The position numbers and the translations under genes are program-made. Below, in pieces: positions 3,931 through 34,703 of a DNA stretch of 37,457 nt; position 1 is the first letter of the stretch; the number at the start of each line of letters is the position of its first letter. Source of the DNA: Candidatus Gastranaerophilales bacterium (GTDB lineage Bacteria; Cyanobacteriota; Vampirovibrionia; Gastranaerophilales; Gastranaerophilaceae); the NCBI GenBank assembly GCA_944323035.1, contig CALUQY010000017.1, forward strand, positions 1 to 37,457, given 5' to 3'. Under the pieces are notes generated by a model. The model had not been told where the DNA came from. It was given only the letters and a program-made list of their open reading frames with translations, and did no database searches.

Positions 3931-4400
3931 TGATTTTTGATGATATAAAAAATATCAGAAACTATTCAGAAGTTGATGAGAAAATCGCGGATTTTATTCT
4001 TAATCTGACAGCCATGCAGGAGTGTGGAAAAGTTTTTCTCTCTGAGGACAGGCTTACTTATGCAAATGTTGATGAATACACAACTAAAACGCTGGAAAAT
4101 TGTAAACTAGAAGCGCATAAAAAATATATTGATATCCAGATTCTGCTGGATGGGGTTGAAGAATTGGATTATATCAATGTCGAAGGGTTAAAAGTCAAAG
4201 AAGCTTATATCCCTGAGCGTGATATTATGTTTTTTGATACTCCTGAAAAAGTTTTGAATAGAATTATTCTGGAAACCGGTAAATTTGTTCTGTTATATCC
4301 TCACGAGGCACATCAACCGCAAATGGCTTATAAAAATATTCCGTCAAAAGTGAAAAAAGTTGTTGTTAAGATCCCTGTATGTCATAGCGAGCCGGCGTAG
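3930..4400 (+). CDS. YhcH/YjgK/YiaL family protein
   Basis: A 156-aa cupin-like protein of the family that includes E. coli YhcH, YiaL and EbgC, linked to sugar (sialic acid, 2,3-diketogulonate, beta-galactoside) metabolism. Typical features are the HKKYIDIQILLDGVEELDY segment, MFFDTPE, and the KFVLLYPHEAHQP motif with conserved His and Glu, possibly metal-binding. The start codon overlaps the upstream pseudopilin stop (TAATGA), so it is translationally coupled. The final residues (CHSEPA) are encoded by a dispersed repeat that begins inside the gene, so the natural C-terminus may be slightly shorter. The physiological substrate is unknown. Confidence 0.85.
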   Translation: MIFDDIKNIRNYSEVDEKIADFILNLTAMQECGKVFLSEDRLTYANVDEYTTKTLENCKLEAHKKYIDIQILLDGVEELDYINVEGLKVKEAYIPERDIMFFDTPEKVLNRIILETGKFVLLYPHEAHQPQMAYKNIPSKVKKVVVKIPVCHSEPA

Positions 4401-14136: not shown

Positions 14137-14186
14137 TTTCGGCTCCTTTTTATCATTTAATATATAGTTTTCGACCTGTTAATATT

Positions 14187-14305
14187 AAAAAAGACTTTAC
14201 AGTCTATAAACCGCAAAATCTTATACTTAGTCTTTAAATTTTAGTTTTAAAGCCTCGATTGGCGCTTGCGCATTAAAGAATTTTCTGCCAATTGTCTACG
14301 GTTTA
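14187..14305 (-). ncRNA. L10-type ribosomal protein leader with attenuator
   Basis: On the minus strand the transcript begins near CCGTAGAC (rc of 14294-14301); AATTGGC just after it pairs with GCCAAT further on, followed by CGAGG, the layout of the known L10 leader where L10(L12)4 binds. Downstream, AGACT-GTAA-AGTCT followed by TTTTTT (14187-14205) is an intrinsic terminator that could act as an attenuator. The hairpin GCGC-AA-GCGC is also visible. Assignment rests on motif layout, not on an alignment. Confidence 0.65.
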
Positions 14306-14309
14306 CATT

Positions 14310-14340
14310 ACTATACTAGCACAAACAAAATAAAACGCAA
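14310..14340 (-). promoter_or_regulatory. Promoter of rplJ-rplL
   Basis: On the minus strand TATAGT (14310-14315) lies about 8 bases before the leader; TTGCGT (14335-14340) is a possible -35 box with 19-base spacing. Confidence 0.5.
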
Positions 14341-32630: not shown

Positions 32631-32903
32631 ATGGTAAACTTTGTTGACGCGGTAAAAAGTGTATCAATCAACGGACGCAGAAGAAAACTTAAAGGCAGAC
32701 CTAAAGAACAGGTCGTCAGAAGGGCGCTTTATAAATATGTGCCGCTTGAACCCGTCAATAAAATGAAAACTGAGCTTCAAGTCAATAATACAGGTTTAAA
32801 TAACAATATTAAAAATACAATTCTTGAACTAAAAACGAAGCTGGATTTCGTTGGTGAATGGGCTCCCTGGAGTAAAGTAGGACAGTTAATAAGTAAGAAG
32901 TAG
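32631..32903 (+). CDS. Small unknown basic protein, 90 aa
   Basis: Not recognised. Residues ~14-36 are strongly basic (NGRRRKLKGRPKEQVVRRAL), followed by an Asn-rich helical stretch and a Trp-containing end (VGEWAPWSKVGQLIS). No membrane segment or Cys. GGAG is 6 bases before the ATG, with another AAGGAG upstream. The next gene starts 7 bases after its stop, so the two form a pair. A nucleic acid-binding role would suit the charge, but this is only a guess. Confidence 0.65.
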   Translation: MVNFVDAVKSVSINGRRRKLKGRPKEQVVRRALYKYVPLEPVNKMKTELQVNNTGLNNNIKNTILELKTKLDFVGEWAPWSKVGQLISKK

Positions 32904-32910
32904 TTTTTGT

Positions 32911-33228
32911 ATGAAAAATTTCGTTTCACATGTAGGGATGAGTTTGAGAAATCTTTTTAGAGAAAAGATTAATCTCGTTATATTGTTGGAGTTGGTTATA
33001 ATAATTCTTTTGCTGCTCTTATTCTGGCTTGTTATTTATGTTTACCTCGAAATATCTGACAACCAGTACCATTTTTATATGAACAACAAAAAATCTATGG
33101 AATTAATTCATAATGTCAAAATCGACAAGTATGACGGCTCTTTCGTTAGAGATCTCACCACGGAAGAAGAATTAATTCGCAAACAGTACGAAAGGTTTCA
33201 TTTAAGAAACCTCTTTAAGGTTAGATAA
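32911..33228 (+). CDS. Small membrane protein, 105 aa
   Basis: Not recognised. A single long hydrophobic helix at about residues 20-46 (LVILLELVIIILLLLLFWLV) after a basic start, then a charged, possibly periplasmic domain of 60 residues (ISDNQYHFYMNNKKS ... RKQYERFHLRNLFKVR). It is 7 bases after the gene at 32631. Its 3' end overlaps by 8 bases the convergent HTH gene. Confidence 0.65.
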   Translation: MKNFVSHVGMSLRNLFREKINLVILLELVIIILLLLLFWLVIYVYLEISDNQYHFYMNNKKSMELIHNVKIDKYDGSFVRDLTTEEELIRKQYERFHLRNLFKVR

Positions 33229-33727
33229 GATTATTCCTTTTGGCCTTTTGCAGCACTTCAAGAATTTTTTGTTCTTCCGGAGTTAATTCCTCGCTATGAT
33301 CGTCGCCGTCTATTAACAAATCCAGTGATATGTGGAAAATTCCTTTAAGTTTTTTTGCGGTTTTTAAATCCGGCTCTATCTTATCCAGCCCGAGCTTTTC
33401 AATCGTGCTTTCAGCAATTCCGCTAAGCTCTGAAAGCTTTTCGACCGTTAAGTTGTTTTCCCCCATAAGATAGTTCAAACGCTCGCCAAATGTTTTATAT
33501 TGCGCCAGAGGATGCCTCCCTGCACCTTCATTATTCTTTACATAAATTTTAACCCCGAAATAATCCTGAACCTTCAATAGTTCACTAACCGTCACCTCGC
33601 TGTTATTAATAAATTTCTGGCTAATATTCGATTTAGAGGTATCAAGCGCTCTGGCAATATCCACCTGCCTTAATGTTCTATTCTTTATTAATTTTTGTAA
33701 ACTATTTAAAAGTTCGTTATAATTCAT
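33221..33727 (-). CDS. Regulator with two XRE-type HTH domains
   Basis: 168 aa. First HTH: residues ~10-60 (TLRQVDIARALDTSKSNISQKFINNSEVTVSELLKVQDYFGV). Second HTH: ~82-135 (ERLNYLMGENNLTVEKLSELSGIAESTIEKLG ... LDLLIDG). The acidic tail EELTPEEQKILEVLQKAKRN follows. Two tandem HTH domains in one chain suggest a monomer or dimer that recognises long or repeated sites. The gene is divergent from the promoter of the structured RNA at 33810; two GTTTAGAA repeats 22 bp apart lie in between. No strong ribosome-binding site precedes the ATG (AGG 6 bases away). Confidence 0.8.
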   Translation of the reverse strand: MNYNELLNSLQKLIKNRTLRQVDIARALDTSKSNISQKFINNSEVTVSELLKVQDYFGVKIYVKNNEGAGRHPLAQYKTFGERLNYLMGENNLTVEKLSELSGIAESTIEKLGLDKIEPDLKTAKKLKGIFHISLDLLIDGDDHSEELTPEEQKILEVLQKAKRNNLI

Positions 33728-33740
33728 CTTAGCCTATTTG

Positions 33741-33770
33741 GTTTAGAAACTCTTTACGAAAAGTTTAGAA
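33741..33770. promoter_or_regulatory. Direct repeats, likely operator of the double-HTH regulator
   Basis: GTTTAGAA at 33741-33748 and at 33763-33770, 22 bp (two helical turns) apart, between the HTH gene and the -35 box of the RNA promoter. Tandem sites suit a protein with two HTH domains (inference). Confidence 0.5.
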
Positions 33771-33774
33771 TTTC

Positions 33775-33803
33775 TTGACAAAATTGTTAGATTATGCTAT
33801 TGT
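33775..33803 (+). promoter_or_regulatory. Promoter of the structured non-coding RNA
   Basis: TTGACA (33775-33780), a 17-base spacer, TATTGT (33798-33803) preceded by TGC (extended -10). No coding region lies downstream for more than 700 bases. An inverted repeat ATTGTAATAT/ATATTACAAT (33799-33808/33840-33849) spans the start. Confidence 0.75.
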
Positions 33804-33809
33804 AATATT

Positions 33810-34206
33810 GAAAGTAATTTGGCAGATTTGCAGATTGCTATATTACAATGGCAAGTTTTGCTGGATTACATAAGTTGCTTGTACAAAATTCTTGAGCAGG
33901 CAAAACTTGGAAGCTGTAATCAGTACAACTTTGCATTATGAGTATATGAGAGCGCGTAGTTGGTTATATTAAAGCTCTTTTGTTACTTCATCTCAATATT
34001 ATCATGAATTAGTAACAGGCGCAAGCAGACAGAGGGTAATGTCTGTCGGTGCTTTTGTGCACAGACGTACTAGCCTCATGGTTATGTTAAGTTGTGGGTT
34101 CCGGCTAAAAAGGCTTGATGTTGAATGTTTTATATGCCAAAAGATAAAACTTCAATGTTATTCGCGGCGGGGCGTTAAATAGAAACTACCCTCCCCGCTT
34201 TTTCTT
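33810..34206 (+). ncRNA. Structured non-coding RNA of unknown family (~397 nt)
   Basis: No reading frame of note is present, but the stretch has a strong promoter and ends in a terminator (GCGGGG at 34167 pairs with CCCCGC at 34193, then TTTTTCTT). Hairpins seen: TGTTACT/AGTAACA (33981/34011), CAGACA/TGTCTG (34026/34040), GTGC/GCAC (34049/34058), TAGCC/GGCTA (34071/34103), and TTGAA-GTTTTAT with ATAAAAC-TTCAA (34121/34144). Near the 5' end three blocks recur as reverse complements in the same order: CAAGTTTTGC, GATTACA, AAGTTG. It lacks the conserved sequences of RNase P RNA, tmRNA and SRP RNA. Known large structured RNAs near tRNA genes (GOLLD, ROOL) come to mind, but no match could be shown. 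Confidence 0.6.
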
Positions 34207-34223
34207 AACACACATACATTTTC

Positions 34224-34252
34224 AAGAGGCTCTTTATTGCCTCTTTTTTATT
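34224..34252 (+). terminator. Second terminator after the structured RNA
   Basis: AGAGGC (34225-34230) pairs with GCCTCT (34239-34244), followed by TTTTTTATT. A backup terminator for the RNA transcript. A GTAGGTTGGGCTTGC repeat fragment, like that in the poly-G loci, follows at 34272. Confidence 0.7.
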
Positions 34253-34309
34253 GTCTATTGCGTATCAAATCCGTAGGTTGGGCTTGCAAGCAACCTGCTT
34301 GGCTCCAAT

Positions 34310-34345: not shown

Positions 34346-34538
34346 TGGGCGATACGTGACAGTCTTGCTCACTCGCGTGTAACGGCAATTCCGCATTTCG
34401 CCAACGTGCAATAGCACTTGCGAAATGTTCCAGCCTCAGCTCGTTCGCGCTCGAACACCGACAAAGCTCTGCTTTGTGTGTTCTCGTCCCGTATCAAAAA
34501 AGGGAGGTATTACCTCCCCTCATTGGGCGATACGTGAC
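34346..34538. mobile_element. Repeat element A inserted at the tRNA-Val 3' end
   Basis: The 15-bp sequence TGGGCGATACGTGAC occurs at 34346-34360 and 34524-34538 on either side of a 163-bp GC-rich, hairpin-bearing segment (CATTTCGC/GCGAAATG near 34394-34426). The right-hand copy is the 3' end of the intact tRNA-Val; the left-hand copy is followed on the minus strand by CCA. This is what an insertion with target duplication, or site-specific integration at a tRNA end, would leave. The internal sequence resembles the start of the repeat at 8198 (ACTCGCG..TAACGGCA). It encodes no protein. Confidence 0.6.
34496..34519 (-). terminator. Terminator now serving tRNA-Val
   Basis: GGGAGG pairs with CCTCCC around TATTA; on the minus strand TTTTTT follows. 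It lies within element A, 5 bases past the tRNA end. Confidence 0.75.
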
Positions 34539-34596
34539 TCGAACACGTGACCCCCACAATGTCGATGTGATGCGCTACCAACTGCGCCAATCGCCC
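34524..34596 (-). tRNA. tRNA-Val (anticodon GAC)
   Basis: 73 nt on the minus strand. Acceptor stem GGGCGAT/ATCGCCC, D-arm GCGC-AGTTGGTA-GCGC, anticodon arm TCACA-TCGACAT-TGTGG, T-arm ACGTG-TTCGAGT-CACGT, discriminator A. The anticodon is GAC, reading valine codons GUC/GUU. Position 33, nearly always U, is C. CCA is not encoded (ATG follows). Fragments of its 3' and 5' ends are duplicated on either side, separated by repeat elements. Confidence 0.88.
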
Positions 34597-34703
34597 GTAA
34601 TTAATCTAATCGGGAAACGGCTGTTTCCCTCGGCTGCGCTACCCCTCTCGCGAAACAATTCACCGGATTGTTTCGCTCGGCAGAGTGCCAATCGCCCGTA
34701 ATT
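34586..34703. mobile_element. Repeat element B inserted at the tRNA-Val 5' end
   Basis: The 17-bp sequence GCCAATCGCCCGTAATT occurs at 34586-34602 (5' end of the intact tRNA) and 34687-34703, flanking an 84-bp segment. It contains hairpins GGGAAAC-GGCT-GTTTCCC (34612-34629) and GCGAAACAA/TTGTTTCGC (34650-34676) with loop TTCACCGGA, the same family as at 8484 and 36089. The layout suggests insertion with duplication of the target. Confidence 0.6.

Follow-up and report, generated by a model that had tools for sequence, protein, structure and literature searches.

The window analysed here, a stretch of 37,457 nucleotides, is a single contig of a 1.94-Mb draft genome (G000) from the Gastranaerophilales (Melainabacteria), which are non-photosynthetic relatives of Cyanobacteria. 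From the start of an HTH regulator gene at 33727 to position 34474, an ORF scan found no reading frame of at least 60 amino acids (aa), and this gap holds a predicted non-coding RNA. The features of the locus are as follows.

32631-32903, plus strand: gene for a 90-aa protein, present at loci L122 (genome G004) and L127 (G003) and not at L120, L121 or L123
32911-33228, plus strand: gene for a 105-aa membrane-type protein, with one hydrophobic stretch by eye; its 3' end overlaps the HTH gene
33221-33727, minus strand: gene for a 168-aa tandem-HTH regulator of the Xre/Cro-C1 type (Pfam HTH_3, E 3.5e-10)
33741-33757, no strand: operator-like site O1, a GTTTAGAA half and a degenerate half
33763-33779, no strand: operator-like site O2, with two mismatches to a palindrome, overlapping the -35 hexamer
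33775-33803, plus strand: sigma-70-type promoter TTGACA-17-TATTGT with a TG before the -10 (extended -10), from a promoter scan
33808-34253, plus strand: predicted non-coding RNA of about 445 nt, its start set by the promoter and its end by the terminator
34224-34252, plus strand: intrinsic terminator AAGAGGC...GCCTCTT followed by a T-run; the scan flagged 34224-34245, after which the T-run begins

Predicted transcript and its ends

The initial annotation had described, at 33810-34206, nearly 400 gene-free bases with a promoter and a terminator of their own, beside tRNA genes. The gene-free stretch is there, the promoter is as described, with -35 and -10 hexamers unchanged in G004, and two minus-strand tRNA genes (Val and Cys) do lie 3' of the RNA. 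The terminator has to be relocated: the GC-rich hairpin inside those coordinates (34167-34198), with its loop of 20 bases, went unflagged in the terminator scan, whereas a canonical terminator, of a form widespread in the family, is present at 34224-34252. The predicted RNA therefore extends over about 445 bases, and the 3' end first given falls some 45 bases short; the divergent HTH gene and the operator-like sites had also been overlooked. The sequence itself shows a promoter, a terminator and structure, and the operator-like sites are local. Promoter-like sites in the scan were near chance (12, against 8.2 in shuffles, sd 2.7) and terminator-like sites numbered six, against 2.5 (sd 1.4). 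It is conservation, and not the scan, that makes the case for an RNA gene.

The tRNA side of the locus has repeats of its own. The 3' end of tRNA-Val recurs as a 15-bp exact copy at a distance of 178 bp, in the gap that separates the RNA from the tRNA (34346-34360 and 34524-34538), and a 17-bp copy of the tRNA 5'-end sequence lies on the other side (34586-34602 and 34687-34703). Duplications of tRNA ends like these can be integration scars. A short dispersed element ending in CTCGGCAGAGTGC occurs in intergenic DNA of G000, G003 and G006 (window, about 34620-34690; L014, 1281-1293; L120, 4303-4315; L151, 2134-2197).

The neighbouring gene block

In G000, G003 and G004 the gene order is the same, running from a gene for a 434-aa protein through the 90-aa, 105-aa and HTH genes to the RNA and then the tRNAs; in G004 additional genes separate the RNA from the tRNAs. 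G002 and G006 lack all four elements (the 90-aa, 105-aa and HTH genes and the RNA) at this place, and a tRNA gene follows the 434-aa gene there within about 110 and about 60 bases, respectively. G005, which has no close histidine-kinase orthologue, was left out of this syntenic comparison. Strong palindromes of mutually unrelated sequence follow the 434-aa gene in G001 (L063, about 1697-1740), G002 (L121, about 4200-4240) and G006 (L120, about 4110-4150); they are probably bidirectional terminators. The 105-aa gene is patchy in the genus: among 39 genomes it was found in G000, G003 and G004 and, more weakly, in G007, G009 and G035. The arrangement seen in the window, with a convergent HTH gene opposite, recurs on contig C61 of G009 (L134, 1811-2627), where the 105-aa protein has an 85-aa relative; before it lie genes that we take, by the look of the sequence, to be rsmH- and ftsL-like.

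Could the RNA serve its own neighbours? It is conceivable that the block is a cis-acting or TA-like module in which the RNA uses pairing or sequestration to control the HTH protein or the proteins of 105 and 90 aa. The shared presence of all four elements in G000, G003 and G004, their joint absence from G002 and G006, and the recurrence of the 105-aa and HTH pair in G009 would fit such an arrangement. However, fewer than 200 bases separate the HTH gene of G009 from the next ORF, leaving no room for the RNA; the best duplex that the terminator loop forms with the start of the 105-aa gene (-11.3) lies inside the null distribution (mean best -12.2); and neither the 90-aa nor the 105-aa protein matches a phage or defence family. 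A module of this kind is distinctly improbable.

Folding and domain structure

The structure claimed for the RNA is backed by predicted folding. The sequence 33808-34253 folds at z -4.18, with none of 100 shuffles as good and 62% of positions paired in the full-length fold, and the shorter 33810-34206 folds at z -3.68 (equalled by 0 of 100 shuffles). The antisense strand reaches z -2.49 (one of 100 shuffles as good), the 3' part of the G000 RNA on its own -2.13, the diverged G004 homologue -5.06 and a short form in G001 -3.18. Four parts, and a hairpin within the last of them, can be distinguished, all on the plus strand.

33808-33900, plus strand: 5' domain, fast evolving; 7 of 93 positions differ from G003, with no confident alignment to G004
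33901-34026, plus strand: middle domain, with blocks identical to G004, namely the hairpin AGAGC...GCTCT and CAATATTATCATGAATTA
34027-34104, plus strand: variable region; 7 of 78 positions differ from G003, and it is partly absent from G004
34105-34253, plus strand: conserved 3' module, made up of a hairpin (34116-34160), a hairpin with a C-rich loop (34167-34198), a linker and the terminator
34167-34198, plus strand: the GC-rich hairpin, its 20-base loop ending in CUACCCU, kept in G000, G003, G004 and G001

A covariance model of the middle domain (R2), searched against eight loci, gave strong matches solely at those of G004 (L122) and G003 (L127). The 3' module is common to G004 and, shortened, to G001. 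Within it the string CUACCC(U)UCCCCG is unchanged in all four sequences, and CUACCCU is predicted to lie in a loop in the centroid folds of both G000 and G004. In the aligned module 99.0% of cells are paired, whereas slid controls reach 46.5-62.2%. Homologues could be collected, as the initial annotation had proposed. The covariation amounts to two compensatory pairs in only three sequences, a count that 58 of 500 shuffles match: in G004, one changes G-C/A-U in the hairpin 34167-34198 and the other A-U/C-G in the terminator. With so few sequences (three to four), covariation is not demonstrable. The 21 differences between G000 and G003 (one of them a gap), placed on the full-length fold, comprise 10 at unpaired positions, four that keep a pair and seven that break one, none compensated.

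Known RNA families

Scanned against Rfam at the gathering score, the whole window gave two tRNAs and a ribosomal protein L10 leader only. The leader (RF00557) precedes the L10 gene, at 14180-14319 on the minus strand. When the RNA locus was scanned permissively (4227 models, E up to 10), the result was five weak, irrelevant matches, and the homologous loci gave tRNAs and nothing else. Neither GOLLD nor ROOL was matched above the gathering score with the whole library, at the homologous loci as well; the SRP RNA models had no match at the RNA locus, and ARAGORN found no tmRNA in the window.

The size and the hairpins of the RNA might suggest a diverged housekeeping RNA (RNase P, tmRNA, 6S or SRP), but the source genome has an RNase P RNA, a tmRNA and a 6S-like RNA at other sites. 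RNase P RNA of class A (RF00010) is on contig C3 (233.8 bits), a one-piece tmRNA (RF00023) on C36 (141.4 bits), and the genome's single match to 6S RNA (RF00013) on C5, at 36.2 bits, below the gathering score of 46.4; none of the three is at the RNA locus, where no relevant Rfam match appears up to E 10. Furthermore, the locus is missing from most relatives, which argues against a housekeeping role, and this explanation retains next to no probability. A diverged tmRNA was briefly suspected on a separate ground, since alpha_tmRNA (RF01849) exceeded the cut-off in none of 25 genomes although all 25 carry smpB; the suspicion was dropped with the RF00023 find on C36.

The initial annotation had noted that the hallmarks of RNase P RNA, tmRNA and SRP RNA are lacking, and had offered a new RNA class or a highly diverged known one. 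The lack is confirmed by both the strict and the permissive covariance-model scans. Of the two suggestions, the diverged known RNA is not supported, with RNase P RNA, a 6S-like RNA and tmRNA found elsewhere in the genome, while a new class is a fair term inasmuch as the RNA is absent from Rfam, and only in the narrow sense of four genomes of one genus. That the locus holds a structured non-coding RNA gene without an Rfam entry is well supported.

Distribution among relatives

Full-length copies occur in three of the seven genomes of the genus (G000, G003 and G004). The homologue on contig C27 of G003 matches at 95% over the query and that on C2 of G004 at 81% over two pieces. A DNA search gave matches at E <=0.01 in 11 of 39 genomes, substantial ones in these three only. 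The weak matches in eight further genomes, and second ones in G003 (22-47 bases, E at least 3.4e-4), were treated as chance; two such loci that were read (L004 and L014) are unrelated sequence.

Covariance model R1, built on the 3' 149 nt of G000, G003 and G004, was run on 383 genomes of the family and matched 35 at E <=0.01: the three founders at 164-188 bits, G001 at 36.1 bits and the other 31 at no more than 33.1 bits. The matches beyond the genus (31 of the 35 genomes) were rejected, as 26 fetched loci, once aligned, share mainly a standard AAAGAGGC-type terminator, and no convincing homologue was found among the 376 family genomes outside the genus. Model R3, built from four sequences with G001 among them, gave no further convincing match in 37 relatives, six of which reached E <=0.01, with G008 and G032 at 28 bits. 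Searches of phages, plasmids and viral contigs were likewise all without a match, and a mobile or viral origin was set aside.

In G001 a short form of the 3' module occupies the syntenic position, within the roughly 250 bases between the 434-aa gene and tRNA-Val. This genome has neither the HTH gene nor the 5' part of the RNA; the short form has a promoter-like sequence of its own (one found, 1.0 expected). That G001 retains the 3' module alone, at the same site, points to the module as the functional core. The linker CTTAACNCACATACATT together with the terminator is also found in G308, which belongs to a genus other than that of the source, after a gene coding for 156 aa (L064, 1534-1550, minus strand), and it may therefore be a wider 3'-end element.

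Sequence constraint

A comparison of G000 with G003 shows a single change in the 149 sites of the 3' module. The rest of the RNA has 19 changes in 296 sites and the downstream spacer 20 in 260 (gaps take up 58 columns). Five neighbouring genes together have 62 changes at 352 fourfold sites. The module is slower than both the fourfold sites (Fisher p 1.6e-9) and the spacer (p 9e-4). The rest of the RNA is slower than the fourfold sites (p 1.4e-5) and no slower than the downstream spacer (p 0.62). By this measure the 3' module is under strong selection, and the 5' two-thirds evolves, between close relatives, as spacer DNA does.

It is possible that the 3' part alone works, as a processed or internally started small RNA of 100-150 nt, and that the 5' two-thirds is a functionless spacer or leader. 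Compared with G003, only the 3' 149 bases are significantly more constrained than spacer DNA, and the short form of G001, with its promoter-like sequence, points the same way. However, the middle domain shares long identical blocks with G004, and the entire G004 RNA, its 5' part diverged, folds at z -5.06. A short RNA is, on balance, unlikely, though it is the foremost of the alternatives.

Another alternative is that the transcript is the mRNA of a small protein, since G000 and G003 both have a 47-aa ORF preceded by a GAGG string, beginning at RNA positions 232 and 231, respectively. Codon changes speak against it: all four changed codons of this ORF are nonsynonymous, as are six of seven in a 40-aa ORF, whereas the HTH gene, used as a control, has 17 synonymous and 11 nonsynonymous changes. 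Both ORFs are missing from G004. Nearly all-nonsynonymous change and absence from G004 are evidence against a small-protein gene, which is scarcely credible here.

The HTH regulator and its operator-like sites

The divergently transcribed gene encodes a protein whose second half matches Cro/C1-type HTH families and whose first half is matched by several PHROGs too; PHROGs repressor families are among its matches. Some match at E <=0.001 exists in 19 of 39 genomes, yet orthologues (93% and 68% identical) are confined to G003 and G004, the next best being 41% identical over residues 1-112 (G007). Full-length RNA and full-length HTH orthologue (at least 68% identity) thus occur in the identical set G000, G003 and G004, a co-occurrence that rests on three genomes, two of them close (95%), and so represents at most two independent lineages.

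Two copies of GTTTAGAA lie between the HTH gene and the RNA in all three genomes. The counterpart of O1 in G004 is a perfect 17-bp palindrome, and the second copy extends into the -35 hexamer. Searched genome-wide with a relaxed pattern, each genome has its best match here, with 0, 1 and 0 mismatches in G000, G003 and G004, and O2 is the sole zero-mismatch match in G000. Overall counts of the pattern are not above a reversed-pattern control, and the best-match test is partly circular because the pattern was derived from these very sites. The HTH protein is presumed to repress both the RNA and itself.

Proposed function

The predicted RNA is uncatalogued, genus-restricted and structured, and its role is probably regulatory. 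How might it work? Transcription from 33775-33803 would run to 34224-34252 and yield about 445 nt of RNA. The tandem-HTH protein would bind palindromic sites between the two genes, one of them covering the -35 box, and would repress the RNA, and probably its own gene too, until a signal releases it; we infer this repression from the layout, in which an operator-like site lies over the -35 box. Once released, the RNA would act in trans, with base pairing as the most likely means. Two stretches of the 3' module predicted to be exposed would do the pairing: the CUACCCUCC loop, with its likeness to an anti-Shine-Dalgarno sequence, and the AC-rich linker, which is unpaired. Stability or specificity would be shaped by the 5' part, which is longer and changes fast. 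Action in trans is suggested by the constraint on the 3' module, the invariant CUACCC(U)UCCCCG and the lone persistence of the module in G001. Duplex energies with the 32 translation starts of the window were no better than those of shuffled segments.

We judge the chances as about even that this is a regulatory RNA specific to its lineage, which the neighbouring gene's product represses and which acts via the conserved 3' module. More tentatively, and with the balance tilted towards doubt, the RNA may represent a new family and form a two-component unit with a dedicated tandem-HTH repressor, being itself large and modular, with a constant 3' module and a rapidly renewed 5' domain. If true, the latter reading would reveal a regulatory switch built on RNA in these non-photosynthetic relatives of Cyanobacteria, with the module also used alone in G001, and an RNA made and repressed as proposed would offer a compact, testable repressor-RNA pair. 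The covariance model R3 can annotate the RNA in more genomes of this uncultured gut group. A literature search, judged by title and the start of the abstract, found no regulatory RNA of Gastranaerophilales or Melainabacteria.

Comparison with known systems

A survey of the human microbiome lists 3161 structured RNA candidates of 27-219 bp that are intergenic and absent from Rfam (PMC8040213). The RNA described here resembles them in being intergenic, structured, from a gut microbe and outside Rfam, and differs in its greater length; the main text of that paper, to which this statement applies, does not name Gastranaerophilales, Melainabacteria or Cyanobacteria, although the 3' module may coincide with one of its candidates.

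The large RNAs GOLLD and ROOL often lie close to tRNA islands, and GOLLD is conserved at its 3' end and less so at its 5' end (PMC12286853). Adjacent tRNA genes are a likeness to both, and a conserved 3' and variable 5' part a likeness to GOLLD (PMC12286853). It might thus be proposed that the RNA is an ornate scaffold working like GOLLD or ROOL, as a homo-oligomer or cage, and a possible loop-loop pairing of AGGGUA at 34033 with UACCCU at 34187 could be read in that sense. However, such a match arises in about 10% of shuffles, and AGGGUA is not conserved in G004, where GGGUA remains. GOLLD, moreover, often exceeds 800 nt and has a phage or prophage setting (PMC12286853), whereas the present RNA is smaller and matches no phage, plasmid, viral contig or Rfam family. 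A scaffold of this type is very improbable.

For the preferred reading, a repressed RNA acting in trans, a close parallel is RNAIII of Staphylococcus aureus, a molecule of 514-516 nt whose 3' domain has regulatory activity and whose C-rich motif pairs with ribosome binding sites (PMC2837412). The two differ in phylum and in type of regulator, and the Rfam scans gave no sequence match between them; here the motif is CUACCCUCC within a single terminator-like loop. What the RNA has in common with RNAIII, as described in PMC2837412, is its length, its many hairpins, a 3' domain, a C-rich motif predicted to be unpaired and, if the proposed repression holds, expression under a regulator.
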